From Brachionus manjavacas (Eukaryota; Rotifera; Eurotatoria; Ploima; Brachionidae), in the NCBI GenBank assembly GCA_019054805.1, contig JAHQIY010000006.1, forward strand, positions 3,534,001 to 3,598,000: a DNA stretch of 64,000 nucleotides, given 5' to 3'. Both the position numbers and the translations under genes were made by a program. Under the pieces are notes generated by a model. It worked only from the letters and a program-made list of their open reading frames with translations, was not told the DNA's origin and made no database searches. Every line of letters starts with the position of its first letter. Position 1 is the stretch's first letter. This document shows positions 4,564-59,476 of this stretch, one piece after another.

Positions 4564-5006
4564 TTATAAATATTGCACACTTTTTTTTCTGGCAGTTTGC
4601 TTAGAAATGACTTTTTCGTTGGATTGGTATTCATAAAATTCGTCAATTTCTATATAAACAACAAAAAAATATAATAATTATAAAAATTAAAAAAAAACAT
4701 CTAATTACCTGTAACTATTTCATGTTTAAAACTATTTTTTAATTTAAGATAAAAGTAAGGCGAAGTGTGTTTTCTTGCAGTTTGTTTGGCTCTATTAGAT
4801 TTGATTTTATGGCAATTAGAATTGGTTTGATTTTTTTCCATTTCTAAAAATTTTCTGATCATTTTGCTAGTACTTTTTCGAGCAGTTTGCTTTGTTCCCT
4901 CAAAATTCAATTTTGGGTTCGAATCGTCATTACTATTTCTAGTAGGACTTGAGCAAGATGATGAAGAATCACTTTTTGGAGAACTAGGTAAAACTTGATC
5001 AGTCAT
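4564..5006 (-). CDS. Small protein with three histone H3 tail-like KQTARK motifs
   Basis: Two coding exons: 4709-5006 and 4564-4649, joined across a 59-base GT...AG intron. They give 384 coding bases, a 127-residue product ending at TAA. The start is ATG at 5006. The first 35 residues are rich in Ser, Asp, Asn and Pro. Three motifs follow: TKQTARKST at residues 38-46, AKQTARKHT at 73-81 and SKQTARKKS at 115-123. The first is identical to H3 residues 3-11, covering the K4 and K9 methylation sites and S10; the others keep both lysines and Q-T-A-R. There is no histone fold, signal peptide or membrane segment. I do not recognise the family. Mimicry of the H3 tail, and so binding by H3 readers or modification by H3 enzymes, is inference. 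The third motif appears only after splicing, in frame, which supports the exon model. Confidence 0.75.
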
Positions 5007-6130
5007 TTTAGGTTAACAAAAATAGTCTATAAAAAATGAAAAATTAAAAAATTATGATTATTGAAAAAGATGATGATAATGCAATTAAAATGCTTCATAA
5101 AAAATGTACAAAAAAATTTCCCATATTCAGTATTGAACAATTGCCTTAAGTCGGAAAATTCTCAAAAAAATTAAACGTGGTTTAAGAAAATATTTTTTGT
5201 CGGCTCAATCAAGTGAAAATGTTTATAAATTTCAACAAATGAATATAACAAATGAATAACACAAAGCCTCAGCTGAGTAACCCATCATTATTTAAAGTAT
5301 TGTTGAAATTTTTAACATTCATATTTAATTTGAATAAATTTGATCAAAAAAATTCTAAATAGATCTTGGAAAATTTTGAATTTTACCGAATTCAAATTTA
5401 AATTCAATGCTTACTTTTAACAAAGCTTTTTTTTTCAAAGTCTAATAAAATTTTGTTGAACTTAACTTAAACAAAAAACAAAAAAATTTCAATAAATGAA
5501 TTGATTATTGAGCTTTTGAATATTCTGATACAATTACTGAGCTTTTAGAGTCAAAGGCATCATTTGACCCATTAAAAAAATACTCAAAGTCTGTTGTCAA
5601 TTCAAATTACTCGTTGAGTTGTGAGAAATTCTAGTAAGTTTATTTTCAATTTAGCTCGTTTTTTTAAATCTTAAGAAAACAACCTCGCAAATCGATTTAA
5701 GAATTACACCTCTCGTTAAACTAGAATTCAAATTGCTAGAAATTCACAAGTTTTTATTAAAAGTACTTTACTTCCTTTTTAATTATTTAAAAATAGCAAT
5801 CAAAATTTTTTGATGAAAAAACTACTACATTGTAAGCTAGATTTTCATTCTACTGTTGAATGTTGCCTAATTAGTCTTGAATTTAATCGTATTTTGTTAA
5901 TAAACATTAATTCATATATTCAAAATTTATAACTCGAAATTTTTTTTTATCTTGATCCTCAAATTAAATTTTTAAATAAATACCTCAAAAATTATGTATT
6001 TTAAAATCATTGAATTTTATTCATAATTTTGAAAAATAATTTAAATCGAGATCTATTATAATAGGTTGGCTTTTTAGTTGTCAAGTTGACTCGATTTTGG
6101 CAAGCATTTATTCAAAGAGCTAGATATTTG
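5007..6130. other. AT-rich intergenic stretch
   Basis: This separates two divergently transcribed genes and should hold both promoters. No recognisable element was seen. A tttttatag acceptor-like site at about 5027 (- strand) could belong to a 5' UTR intron of the KQTARK gene. A tttttag near 6077 could precede an earlier exon of the downstream gene. Confidence 0.45.
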
Positions 6131-7078
6131 ATGTTGGCTAGCTTCTCAAATGACCCTTCTCAGTCCAATGTTGTATATGGTTTCAAAAATTATACTGAAT
6201 TGGAGCTCGGAAATTTAAATATACTGCTGAGTGTGCCACACGATGGCTCCTTACGACCGCAAGAAATTCTTAATAGAGAAAATGATTTGAATGGAAATTT
6301 TAAGAATGATAAAAATACGCGAAGATTTACCAAGTACTTGAAAAATGAACTCGAAATTTTGTTCTTTACCCGCCAAGAAATCAAATTAATTCCTTTCGTA
6401 TTATATAATAATTTACACAGGTAAATTTAACTTTGAAAAACTATATAAGCACTGAATGCTTCTTTTGATGTAATTTTTTTAAGAATAAAAATGGATCCAA
6501 ATCGAGATTTGGAAAATTGCTGCCATAGCACAAATCAAGATGCCCATACTGCTTACCAAGACTATCATTCCATGATTGAAATATGCTTCCGTAAAAATTT
6601 TGTCTTATCAAACAACTTTGATCAAGGCCTTATTTTGGATATTCATGGTAATTCACACGAAGAACAATGGGTCGAACTAGGTTATTTATTGAAAAAAAGT
6701 GACTTAGAAAATGATAAACTTTCGAATTCGTTGAACACTTCAATTAGATCTATGGCTTCAAAGAGTTTTCTTAGTCTTGAAGAAATGATTAGAGGTGAAA
6801 AAGTGTCTTTAGGTTCACTTATTGAATCTAAAAGTAACATTAAAGTGGTACCCTCACCTGGTTTTAAGTCTCCAAAAGGAGGAAATTATTATAGTGGTGG
6901 TTTCATTACAGAGTGCCACGGATCTTTTTATGACACATCTAAAAGACTGAATTCGATACAAATTGAGCTTCCCATGTGGATGAGAACTGATAAATATATT
7001 GAATTTAGCGCCAAACACATAGCAAAAGCTATTTTTGAATTTTATGAACTACATTCATTGAACTCTTTAAAAATTTAA
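6131..7078 (+). CDS. N-formylglutamate amidohydrolase-like protein
   Basis: Two exons, 6131-6420 and 6484-7078, joined across a 63-base GT...AG intron that splits an Arg codon. The product is about 294 residues. Conserved blocks appear in order: VPHDG (about residues 35-39), NNLHR at the splice junction, a DPNRD block, LDIHGN (about 149-154), VPSPG, and GGFITECHGS with IQIELP towards the end. These resemble the zinc-dependent N-formylglutamate amidohydrolase superfamily, in which His and Asp/Glu residues hold the metal. The animal members have no substrate known to me, so only hydrolase-like is claimed. The first ATG in the open frame is 6131; the frame is open from 6065 after a possible acceptor, so an upstream exon, for instance a signal peptide, may be missing. 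Confidence 0.7.
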
Positions 7079-55345: not shown

Positions 55346-57703
55346 GGCATCCAATAGTTTCACAGCAAATTATTTAGTAGCAAAGACAAGTTTAGAAGCG
55401 AAACGTGTTAGATGCATTATTAAGAAGCAATTATTACGAAGCAGTTCTTTGAAGCAAATTTATTAGGTGCGATTTTTTCATAGCCAAAAATTATTAGTAG
55501 CAGTTTTTTAGAAGCTAATTTTTTGCATGTATGTTTATTTATAGCACGAATTTTTTATAAAGAAAATTCTCTCGTTTTTTCTTGTTCTTAAAAAAGACTG
55601 CTCAAGTCAATCAAATTTCCTATTTTTATTTTCTTTAAAAATGAACTTGATAATTCAAGTATTTTTATGCTCTAATAAATTTTTAGATGAAAAAAAAAAC
55701 AAGTAATCAACAAAAAGTAAATTACGATTCACCATTGCGTTTACGAACGAAAAATGTACCACGTAGTCATCACCTAACACTGGACAGTACAATTGAACCG
55801 AACCGTAATAAACCGTGCTCAAGTAATACTCAAGAAACGTCTAGTAATGAACCGTGCTCAAGTAATACTCAATTAAGTTGCATTGAAAGCTTATCGAATT
55901 TATCTTTGTATGATACAGTCGACGATCAGGTTGAAGACGACGATTACTATGACCCAGAATTGTGTTTTGAGAATGAGAATGACGATAAGATAGTCGAAGA
56001 ATACGAAGAAGAAGAATCCATTGAACCCAAAAAGAAATTAACAGTTACATCAACAAAATTTGGGAATCCAAAATTATGCCATGAAGGGTATTTTTATACT
56101 ATTGATCGTCAAACTGGTGTGTTTCCAAATAATAAAATAGAATGGAAATGCGAGAGAGTTGGTTCAAAAAAAGACAAATGTAATGGACGAGTAGTGACTA
56201 TTGGTCATTTAGAGCCAGTTAAAGAGGTTACTTCCCATAACCATTTACCAGATCCAGCTAAAACTGAATGTCTATTGGCTATGGAAAAGTTGAAACAATT
56301 GGCTCAACAGTCTTCGCAAAATCCACGCTCAATAATAAAAAAAGCTCAGCTGAACCTTAGTGAAGAATCAGCTGCAAAAATGACACGTGCAGTAAATTTA
56401 ACTCAAATTGTAAAACGAATACAAAATAAAAAAGTCGACAGTGGTGATACAGCAAAAGATAGGACTGAGTTAAACATACCTGACAGTTTATTATTATCTT
56501 ATGATGGTGAAAAATTCTTGTTGGAAGACACAGGACCAGATGATCCGGAACGTATTTTGATATTTTGCACAAAAGAGAACTTGACTTTGTTAAACTCAAA
56601 TTGGGATTGGTATTGTGATGGCACTTTTGCTGTTGCGCCGAGTTTTTTTTACCAACTTTTCACCATTAATGTGATTTTGAAAAATAAGAATCTTCCAGTC
56701 GTGTACGCATTACTTCCAAATAAAAGTCAAGAATCTTACATCCGTTTTTTTAATTTGCTTATAGCTAACATCGAAGTCCAGCCACATAACATACTTAGTG
56801 ACTTCGAAAAGTCTATACATATCGCTATAGAACATTCTCTCCCCGGGACTCGTGTTATTGGCTGTTATTTTCATCTAGTTCAAAATTTGTGGCGTCACAT
56901 TCAATTAAATAAATTAGTTAAAACTTATGCAGCTGATCCAAAGATCAGAAAGTCGTTTAAATTTATTCAGTCACTAGCTTTTATACCAAAGAAAGACGTA
57001 ATTTTTTGTTTTAATAAGTTAAGAGAGTTGGCTCCAGTTAAATTTAAGTGCATGCTAGATTACTTTGAAAAATATTATATTGGAAGCTTGAAAAAAAATA
57101 GCAATACAATTCGATCTATTCCTATGTTTCAAATACATTTATGGAACATAAACGAACGTATTTTGAACGATTGTCCAAAAACAAATAATTCCTTAGAGTC
57201 TTGGCACAAACAATTTGAAATCGACGCCAAAAAACACCAAACGACTTATAAATTAATTGAACAATTTCGTATTGAGCAAAAGAACACAGACGTTTTAAGA
57301 ATACAGATTCAAAGTGGGGATGAATTTAAGAGAAAGAACAAAGAGGTACAAAAAGACGAGTTAATCAAAAGAAGTTTAAAAGATTTCAAAAGAGATAATT
57401 TCGAGAAGTGGGCTGAAAATTTTATTTTATTATTATAATGAACAAAAAAAAATAACTTTAAATTTGATTCGACACTTTTTTTTTATTGACTGAATAAATT
57501 GATTTGCATCGAACTTTTTTTTTTTTATTTACTTCTAAAAAATCGCTTCTAAAAGTACGCTATATAACTTGCTATGAAAAAAAGCGATGAATTAATTGCT
57601 TCTAACATTGCTACTAATTGACATTTACCTGAAAAATTTTCTTCGAAAAATTAGCTGTTAAATATTTGCTACGAAAAAAATTGCTATATAACGACCTAGT
57701 GCC
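55346..57703 (+). mobile_element. Complete MULE transposon (2358 bp) inserted in the Gypsy element
   Basis: It is bounded by an 8-bp duplication (accaattc). The ends are inverted and start GGCA, with shared AGCAA and GTAGCAAA words in the first 45 bases. Both subterminal regions are packed with short repeats of the type (g)aagca..tttt on the left and their complements (gcttctaaaaa) on the right, likely transposase-binding clusters. It encodes one intact transposase. The second copy of the Gypsy segment (63385-64000) shows the same sequence without the insert, which fixes the ends precisely. Confidence 0.92.
55687..57438 (+). CDS. MULE transposase with FLYWCH zinc finger
   Basis: An uninterrupted 583-codon frame inside the MULE. 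Residues 1-115 are Ser/Asn/acid-rich, with a short direct repeat of PCSSNTQ. Residues about 118-190 form a FLYWCH-type zinc-finger domain (LTVTSTKFG, GYFYTIDR, WKCERVG, C-NGR, SHNHLPD). The catalytic core follows, with a first Asp in WYCDGTF, a second in LSDFEKS and the CYFHLVQNLW block. A downstream NNSLESWH probably supplies the Glu, giving the DDE set of MULE transposases. It should excise and reinsert the element by DNA binding and strand transfer. All motifs look intact, suggesting a recent or still active copy. The SWIM finger seen in some relatives is not evident. Confidence 0.88.
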   Translation: MKKKTSNQQKVNYDSPLRLRTKNVPRSHHLTLDSTIEPNRNKPCSSNTQETSSNEPCSSNTQLSCIESLSNLSLYDTVDDQVEDDDYYDPELCFENENDDKIVEEYEEEESIEPKKKLTVTSTKFGNPKLCHEGYFYTIDRQTGVFPNNKIEWKCERVGSKKDKCNGRVVTIGHLEPVKEVTSHNHLPDPAKTECLLAMEKLKQLAQQSSQNPRSIIKKAQLNLSEESAAKMTRAVNLTQIVKRIQNKKVDSGDTAKDRTELNIPDSLLLSYDGEKFLLEDTGPDDPERILIFCTKENLTLLNSNWDWYCDGTFAVAPSFFYQLFTINVILKNKNLPVVYALLPNKSQESYIRFFNLLIANIEVQPHNILSDFEKSIHIAIEHSLPGTRVIGCYFHLVQNLWRHIQLNKLVKTYAADPKIRKSFKFIQSLAFIPKKDVIFCFNKLRELAPVKFKCMLDYFEKYYIGSLKKNSNTIRSIPMFQIHLWNINERILNDCPKTNNSLESWHKQFEIDAKKHQTTYKLIEQFRIEQKNTDVLRIQIQSGDEFKRKNKEVQKDELIKRSLKDFKRDNFEKWAENFILLL

Positions 57704-57711
57704 ACCAATTC
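57704..57711. repeat. Right 8-bp target-site duplication of the MULE
   Basis: accaattc, immediately after the terminal gtgcc of the element. Confidence 0.9.
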
Positions 57712-59476
57712 TTAGAGATGCCGTGTAAGGTCCAATAACATTCAACGGTTGACCATTCGCAGTCGTAAAGGAACCTTTTGTTTTTTGTAATTCTTTACAT
57801 CCTAGTTTTCTCCAGATATTTTTACTAATTAACGTCTTCACACTTCCTGTGTCTAATAAGCATCCTATCTTCTCTCCATTTAAGTACCCGAAAACATATT
57901 TCAAGTCGTAATTATCTGACTCTTCATTTATGTTATTGGTATTTGCAGAAAAATGGTTTCTTCGATCATTTCTGATTGTTGCCATTGGTGTCGATCTATT
58001 CAATGAACTAAATTGGCTATCATAACCCAATCGATAATATTGATTGTACATATTTCTAATCCCATTAGGACAATTCCTCTTAATATGTCCTTCCTGATTA
58101 CACAAAAAGCATCTCATTGCTGGTTTTTGAACTGGATAATTTGGCATATAATTCCTGCTTGTTGAATTAAGATACGATCCAACGTTTGAATTATTTAGCA
58201 ATTTTGAATAATTAGACATATTTGACAAGTAAGCATTTACAAAACTATTATCATAACTATTCCTTATTGTCTCAACGTTGTTTTGTGAATTTCCATAATG
58301 TTTATTCTGATTTTGAAACATTATATTCGACTCTAACTTTGGTGTTATTAAGTTTCTGATTTCTCCTTCTGTAATCTGTCTTCTTGTTCCTTGATTAAAC
58401 ATATTTCTGCGTCGCTCTCTAATCCCACTAAATCCAAAAGGTAAACCTTCGTCTTCTCTTGCTCTGAGTACCAACATCTCTAAGTTTTCATGATCCAATA
58501 CAGCTAATCTTTCAGCCATTTCTCTGTCACGGACTCCTGCTAGAAATTGACCTCGAAGATAAATATCTAGTTCCCTAAGATTTAAATCTGGAAAATCTTT
58601 TCGTCCTAATTCCTGCAGTACAGCCGCATACTGAACTAAGCTTTCATTTAGCTCCTGGCCTCTTCCAACAAAGGTATGAAGGTAAACATGTGCAGAATAT
58701 TCTGGTCTACTAAAAAGAGCTCTAAATTTGTTTTTAACTTCATCATATGACCGTTCATTTATCAAACTATCGACCAATTTAAACGTTGTATCATTCAAAA
58801 AAGATCCTAACACATTTATCTTATCTCTATCTCCAAAAATTCTGTTTAATTCTAGATAATTATCAAATCTTGCTAGCCATATATCCACATTTGTATCCAA
58901 ATTAAAAACCGATGGGGCTCTTAAGCTATGGTTTGCCATTTTAAATTTCTTTTGGCCTATGCCTTTTCCTTTCAAACACTTTGTTGTTTCAGTTTCTTTA
59001 TTCTCTGAATGGAAAATTTGATGTTTCCAAATATTACTAAATGAAATATTTTTCTTGTTGTTGAATGAAATTGTATTCTTCCATTATCCAATTTTTTCGC
59101 TCATATTTATAATCAAACTTTTGGCTTTATATTTTAAAAAATCACGCGTTGAAACATCACTCCACGATCTTTCCAAAAAATCTCGTGTCTCTTTCTTCTT
59201 TTCATTGCTAAATAAGCTAGATTGAAACAATGAATTATTCACTGACTTCACTGAAACATCTCGTGCTATATTATTCTCCTCGCTATTGTTCAAAATCGAC
59301 TGAAACAATGAATAACTAGAAGCTTTTTCTTTTCTTCCAGTGAACAGTTTAGCATTTCCAACCATCTTGAACACTTTACTTTTGGCTTACCACTAAAATC
59401 AACTTTTCAACACACTTGATACCACGTTTTATTTTTATTTTAGAAATCAATCTAATAGCTTAACCGCTGCCACCAA

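Follow-up and report, generated by a model that had tools for sequence, protein, structure and literature searches.

Histone mimicry is known mostly from enzymes, cofactors and viral proteins that carry a single motif. Substrates of the G9a, WIZ, LIG1 and ATF7IP type carry one motif or a few in larger proteins with other domains, influenza NS1 and SARS-CoV-2 ORF8 are viral non-histone proteins with a single short copy of the H3 tail, and the mimic of Swi6/HP1 is an 'ARK' loop. In the available text of the reports on such systems, peptides of G9a and H1 are bound by HP1 family proteins (PMC3325965, PMC9768651, PMC10611923), methylated ATF7IP recruits MPP8, an H3 mimic sequence in Swi6/HP1 regulates HP1 (PMC7192584), and EZHIP, a histone mimic inhibiting PRC2, is as a rule confined to the germline and evolves under diversifying selection in primates (PMC12713659). 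The specificities of the H3K9 enzymes and readers are described, in the portions of the papers at hand, as follows: 1) the minimal site of G9a is TARKSTG, in which R8 is indispensable and K9 is preferably followed by a hydrophilic residue (PMC8541646); 2) SUV39H1 reads K4 to G12, demands R8 and takes R, K, S or T at +1 (PMC8303541); 3) CBX3 requires Ala at -2, with a methyl-sized pocket, contacts S/T at +1, and binds methylated H3K9, H1K26 and G9aK185 peptides with comparable affinity (PMC3325965). The mimic of G9a itself is read by HP1, a recognition that Aurora B can prevent by phosphorylating the residue that follows (PMC9768651), and H3S10 phosphorylation inhibits the readers of H3K9me3 (PMC5348760). 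The methylated peptide of the ARKS motif of ADNP is reported, in the part of the paper available, as not binding HP1 (PMC3022755), and the motif alone is thus no proof of chromodomain binding.

The locus described here lies in a window (the whole stretch of 64,000 nucleotides analysed) from the rotifer Brachionus manjavacas and encodes a small protein with three KQTARK boxes. We surmise, with a probability of about one half, that this protein is a multivalent H3K9 mimic, which serves H3K9 methyltransferases and/or HP1-type chromodomains as substrate or ligand. The features of the gene and its product are these:

5006-4564, minus strand: gene of the putative H3K9 mimic, two exons, 127-residue product
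5027..5028, minus strand: possible acceptor AG (TTTTTTATAG), 20 nt 5' of the ATG, from reading the sequence
4709..5006, minus strand: exon 1, with start codon, serine-rich segment and boxes 1 and 2, aligned to P0001-P0005
4986..5000, minus strand: N-terminal box D-Q-V-L-P, residues 3-7, with Q-x-L-P in 10/10 relatives of alignment A4
4875..4892, minus strand: box 1, TKQTARKST, with KQTARK at residues 39-44, from protein and DNA pattern
4770..4787, minus strand: box 2, KQTARKHT, with KQTARK at residues 74-79, from protein and DNA pattern
4755..4775, minus strand: RKHTSPY, end of box 2, fitting the PY-NLS consensus, from a pattern search
4650..4708, minus strand: intron, 59-base GT..AG, phase 1, after codon VT, same junction in relatives
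4564..4649, minus strand: exon 2, with box 3 and stop codon, read from the sequence
4585..4602, minus strand: box 3, KQTARKK, with KQTARK at residues 116-121, in exon 2, kept in P0001

The boxes have the same H3K9-like A-R-K-[S/T] core as the G9a/GLP automethylation mimic (ARKT, G9a K185), WIZ, LIG1, ATF7IP and H1 K26. Unlike the G9a-type substrates, the rotifer proteins, which are orphans of roughly 105-230 residues, have two to four near-exact QTARK copies that account for much of their conserved part. The viral mimics NS1 and ORF8 are likewise short H3-tail copies, but they are viral and have a single copy. With Swi6/HP1 the family would share an H3 mimic that regulates HP1; Swi6, however, acts in cis inside HP1, whereas in the rotifer protein no chromodomain is recognised, and its action would be in trans. 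To our knowledge there is no sequence link between the rotifer family and EZHIP, which differs in mimicking the region around K27, with methionine in place of the lysine, and in targeting PRC2. EZHIP, found in placental mammals, resembles the family as a protein that is restricted to its lineage, evolves fast and carries an H3 mimic motif, as far as the available text on it goes (PMC12713659). A full-text literature search, judged by title and start of abstract and mostly covering papers outside subscription, yielded, among the papers listed, none that deals with an H3 mimic of rotifers.

The coding sequence is 384 nt on the minus strand, stop included, and the intron begins with GTAATT and ends with TATAG. 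Coordinates, reading frame, intron and the three KQTARK motifs all agreed with the description in the earlier note, and a conserved gene with a shared splice junction gained support, at the level of sequence comparison, from an orthologue in B. plicatilis and from other relatives. This orthologue, P0001, shares the splice junction, retains the three motifs, and is 84% identical to the window protein in the first protein search and 87% over alignment A1. The junction VT|EIDE is read across in the annotated proteins of B. plicatilis (P0001) and B. calyciflorus (P0005), and P0002, P0003, P0004 and P0010 continue into other residues at the place of the intron, as unspliced predictions would (VTGN or ITGN in P0002, P0003 and P0004; an apparent in-frame read-through in P0010). 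Judged from this protein comparison, which is the whole of the support for the intron, its position appears to be common to the window gene and six relatives, two of them annotated as spliced and four being unspliced predictions. The AG at 5027..5028 is possibly the acceptor of a leader intron or a trans-splice site. At the other end of the gene, the residues after box 3 are KSVQYL in the window vs. KASNIYKY in B. plicatilis, a difference that fits a one-base length change in the A8 run at 4581-4588 (T8 on the plus strand) and would be either a real change or an assembly error.

A chance repetition in a non-functional open frame, for which the AT-rich region and the serine-rich stretch could be cited, is extremely improbable and was rejected on comparative grounds, namely the orthologues, the shared junction, the synonymous-only differences between boxes and the rarity of the motif across the genome. 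Given the composition of the protein, KQTARK is expected 1.6e-5 times per protein, and the chance of three is ~7e-16 in a crude model that takes overall composition and ignores local composition. In the 114-Mb, 61-contig assembly, a degenerate DNA pattern for KQTARK had 20 matches vs. 6 for the reversed control pattern; three of them fall in the mimic gene, eight in canonical H3 genes (seven of these loci were read and the eighth, C17:1784714, was assigned), two in a divergent H3 pair and seven elsewhere. Since two of these seven are KQTASK and the other five lie in very short frames, KQTARK outside H3 and the mimic gene is at control level. The three boxes differ from one another at 3/18 nt, every difference being synonymous, and their DNA flanks are alike at 7-14/30 positions on the left and 7-11/21-30 on the right. 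A fresh or recent DNA duplication was rejected, because the flanks are not alike while the differences inside the boxes are synonymous.

The divergent H3 pair consists of neighbouring genes at 790589 and 795350 (L013, G000:C16:789000-797000). Their product begins MARNKQTARKST, but its tail is unlike that of canonical H3 (SQTALKKLASKTAKKSLRSS...), and a 90-residue stretch of one of them matches Pfam Histone at E 1.7e-12. By sequence the pair on C16 is a candidate for the centromeric or variant H3 of the rotifer.

Ten of the 15 proteins found were taken as family or near-family, and P0007, P0009, P0013, P0014 and P0015, which have H3-tail words and no N-terminal [DE]QxLP box, were excluded from all counts. 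In the Brachionus-type group, P0005, the B. calyciflorus protein, has two motifs and a degenerate third (NETSRK), P0010 has two and a degenerate MKQTATNK, and P0002, P0003 and P0004 have two each, with box 3 not visible. The more distant P0006, P0008 and P0011 (four TARK motifs each) and P0012 (three) carry the N-terminal [DE]QxLP box ahead of their motifs. When the boxes were masked in a comparison of 11 sequences, the window protein still matched P0001 to P0005 (E 3e-53 to 3e-6) and P0006 matched P0001 at E 0.0017; with the same masking, P0010 was linked through P0005 (E 3e-15), and P0006, P0008 and P0011 matched one another (E 1e-11 or better). Outside the boxes, the kinship of the four distant proteins to the Brachionus group appears weak, as evidenced by: 1) E-values not significant alone, of 1.2 and 4.8 for P0006 and P0008 in the second protein search and of 0.04 and 0.37 for P0011 and P0012 in the third; 2) a profile of 7 masked Brachionus-type sequences, which did not rank the distant proteins above 1000 shuffles (P0012 at rank 47 and P0011 at 714, with P0006 and P0008 not listed). 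The query of the third search already included P0006, P0008, P0005, P0001 and P0003, whose low E-values there arise by construction, and the later two protein searches scored only the 8000 candidates with most shared words. Common to both groups are the N-terminal [DE]-Q-x-L-P box, the H3K9 boxes and, in most members, a serine-rich stretch. The two groups may be distant homologues or convergent arrays, the weak similarity outside the boxes leaving room for an independent origin of similar arrays. In the rotifer's own genome no paralogue rose above chance (the third match had E 1.2 at 22% identity, and the other search gave one match at E 1.35), and a single viral-contig scan, with 36 matches of two family peptide patterns, yielded no confirmed viral relative.

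Among the excluded proteins, P0014 and P0015 are apparently unrelated and have two RTKQTARKST copies each; judging by these, there may have been more than one origin of multiple H3-tail mimicry. P0013, of 170 aa, matches Pfam Histone at E 3.9e-14 and has a tail with five ARKST copies, the first in MRTKQTARKST. It would be an H3 variant in which the K9 segment has been multiplied. This is the mimic family's arrangement in reverse, and a possible clue to the origin of that family.

In alignment A4 of 10 relatives, every residue of Q-T-A-R-K is kept in 10/10 members in both box 1 and box 2, the K4 position in 9 and 8, T11 in 9 and 8, and S10 in 4 and 4, and the equivalents of A1-R2 are not kept. 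Boxes 1 and 2 are present in all ten relatives, the absence of the motifs from close relatives being what the earlier note had named as the finding that would count against it, and the motifs stay while the linkers change, a pattern that the note had proposed to look for. Box residues vs. all others identical to the window number 18/18 vs. 91/109 in P0001, 12/12 vs. 49/86 in P0002, 12/12 vs. 43/101 in P0003 (p 9e-5), 12/12 vs. 42/91 in P0004, 12/18 vs. 32/109 in P0005, 17/18 vs. 23/98 in P0006 and 17/18 vs. 25/90 in P0008. One-sided p-values for these seven of the ten relatives, those in alignment A2, run from 0.051 to 1e-8 and are <=0.003 in 6/7; the 0.051 belongs to P0001, because this protein is 84-87% identical overall. 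The search worked with 5-residue words, often lying in the boxes, and would miss distant relatives devoid of boxes, so that, together with the 8000-candidate limit, the conservation of boxes in distant relatives is partly ascertained. This bias should not apply to P0001, which shares long stretches elsewhere. With that ascertainment in mind, the seven relatives tested and the synonymous-only differences between boxes point to selective conservation of the motif. The protein had been presented as a triple mimic, which does not hold as a fixed property: there are two, three or four boxes depending on the relative, and box 3, kept in B. plicatilis, has degenerated in P0005 and P0010 and cannot be seen in P0002-P0004.

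We collected 31 boxes from eleven sequences by TARK, which is therefore invariant by construction; among them the Q5 position has Q in 27, the K4 position K in 26 and the T11 position T in 23, while the S10 position is S in 9, H in 9, L in 5, K in 3, A in 2, Q in 2 and R in 1. Box 1, TKQTARKST, is exactly H3 3-11, as first described, and the lysine equivalent to K4, found in 26/31 boxes and in 9 and 8 of ten relatives at boxes 1 and 2, would suit a decoy of the H3 tail for N-terminal, lysine-4 readers or writers. Most H3K4 readers, however, need a free N-terminus, contacting the free amino group of A1 as well as R2. Neither A1 nor R2 is kept, and no copy of the motif is N-terminal: in place of the N-terminal ARTKQTARKSTGGK of H3, KQTARK is internal and no A1-R2 stands at the N-terminus. 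Within these TARK-collected boxes, TARK also stays where K4 is replaced (by R, V, T or C). A lysine-4 decoy is very unlikely in our view. The invariant Q-T-A-R-K, the unkept A1-R2 and the variable S10 indicate, as far as the aligned sequences go, that the boxes are a lysine-9 and not a lysine-4 mimic. Of the H3K4/K9 mimicry originally proposed, the K9 part is hence upheld by the invariant core Q5-K9, and the K4 part falls with the loss of A1-R2, the replaceable K4 and the internal position of the motif. As read from the sequence, the box core matches the minimal G9a site and the ligand of the HP1 chromodomain; the protein has the A-R-K core of the H3K9 recognition site in a non-histone protein, as an H3K9-type mimic does.

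The S10 position, listed among the modification sites at the outset, is not generally such a site: in 22/31 boxes it is H, L, K, A, Q or R, and we surmise that a phosphorylation block is impossible there. The same count bears on whether a mitotic or other kinase uses the boxes as an array of substrate or docking sites (through the equivalents of T6, T11 and S10), or whether they are some other short linear motif outside the H3K9 type. T6 is invariant in boxes 1 and 2, T11 is present in 23/31 boxes and S/T-P follows box 2 in several members, all of which such an array would explain, but the lack of S/T at most S10 positions speaks against it, and the invariant A7 and the match to the G9a/HP1 footprint would be left unexplained; we consider it unlikely. 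On the side of the lysine-9 mimic, the +1 residue is L in 5/31 and H in 9/31 boxes, outside the stated preference of SUV39H1 for R, K, S and T, and given this and the contact of CBX3 to S/T at +1, not every box need be a good ligand.

With respect to protein class, no Pfam family was found at cut-off in any of the five members scanned, and a Pfam Histone match was missing at E 1 or below in all five. A charge-hydropathy calculation classed 6/6 tested members as disordered, and the AlphaFold model of P0001 (ten sequences) has a mean pLDDT of 58, a pTM of 0.13 and one short helix at 53-63, without a confident fold. Both of these predictions agree with the disorder first suggested for the protein, and the missing Histone match and predicted fold bear out that it is not a copy of H3; a histone pseudogene or H3 copy was rejected on the same grounds. 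A profile of the ten relatives matched mostly H3 chains or peptides in the PDB, weakly, with a best E of 0.055 among 60 of the 129 matches, and the two profile alignments shown both run through one box. GGK does not follow box 1, 2 or 3 of the window protein, and the loose PxVxL chromoshadow pattern is missing in 10/11 members, the window's included, with two matches in P0012.

The consensus of the PY-NLS is [RKH]-x(2-5)-PY, and the boxes could be nuclear-import signals, either H3-type or PY-type ligands of karyopherins. The pattern formed by box 2 and the PY that follows is found in the window protein and 6/6 Brachionus-type relatives, but in 0/4 distant members. Going by the available text of a study of H3 import, the H3 tail is a cargo of Kap123 and Kap-beta2, but recognition by Kap123 relies on K14 and K23 of H3, and nuclear localisation of the reporter was dramatically reduced by K14Q and not by K9Q (PMC5677370). 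An import function would also leave the strict T-A-R-K unexplained, and as the explanation of the boxes it seems to us quite unlikely.

We return to the multivalent H3K9 mimic. In this model a small, disordered nuclear protein would present several H3 lysine-9 segments (Q-T-A-R-K, usually then x-T), and K44, K79 and K121 would be substrates or pseudo-substrates of rotifer H3K9 methyltransferases. Once methylated, these lysines would become ligands for HP1-type chromodomains, and with two to four sites and neither a histone fold nor a recognised DNA-binding domain the protein might gather such factors or titrate them off chromatin, as a soluble scaffold or a sponge. Where the S10 position holds H, L or K, a box would have no phosphorylation off-switch. 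The retention of at least two copies in related rotifers suggests that the protein is made to engage the machinery of gene silencing. The observations behind this model are the gene structure, the conservation, the motif core, the predicted disorder and the fact that the genome encodes HP1, Pre-SET and SET proteins; we infer that the mimic protein is expressed, nuclear, methylated and bound, and likewise which way it acts.

The genome encodes an HP1 chromodomain (L023) of which 55/57 residues align with a PDB chain of CBX5 and 53 with one of CBX1, and has three chromoshadow-domain matches, a Pre-SET exon above cut-off (L053), which we take to be SETDB1-like, and a SET-domain exon (L054) with a Pre-SET match below cut-off. 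In B. manjavacas, according to the available text of one study, H3K9me3 has been measured by antibody dot blot, and in Brachionus its levels were lowered with an inhibitor (PMC12571253). An alternative use of the boxes is competitive inhibition of an H3K9 methyltransferase in the manner of EZHIP, the protein being neither substrate nor HP1 ligand. The rotifer family likewise keeps its motif while the rest drifts; however, its lysine is invariant in boxes 1 and 2 whereas EZHIP has an H3K27M-like methionine, which makes plain inhibition less expected, and we judge this alternative rather improbable. A more specific proposal, which we hold only tentatively and regard as doubtful, is that the family is a soluble multivalent sponge for HP1 or other chromodomains, with two to four methylatable H3K9 mimics, many of which have S10 replaced and would thereby hold HP1 whatever the Aurora-type phosphorylation; it could tune heterochromatin or decoy the chromodomain-bearing integrases of retroelements. 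A family of small animal proteins with an H3K9 array as its main conserved feature would show that cells can build multivalent soluble H3 tails, and the residues that occur naturally at the S10 position lend themselves to testing how the methyl/phospho switch can be bypassed, in a genus, Brachionus, that is a culturable model.

There are 79 chromodomain matches in the genome, and by eye 15 of the 17 best-scoring loci that were read (L024-L037, L039) look like integrase ends, several of them being followed by a membrane or envelope-like segment; these 15 look like chromodomain retroelements and not HP1. In the window, two adjacent open frames at 6065-7078 on the plus strand adjoin the mimic gene and have no Pfam match; they are perhaps exons of one gene and presumably resemble N-formylglutamate amidohydrolase-like proteins. 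No Rfam family reached its gathering score within 1-64000. At 55687-59083 of the window, a MULE transposase/FLYWCH frame lies opposite in strand to a frame of gag-type protease/zinc-knuckle kind, and the two appear to be mobile-element genes or their remains.
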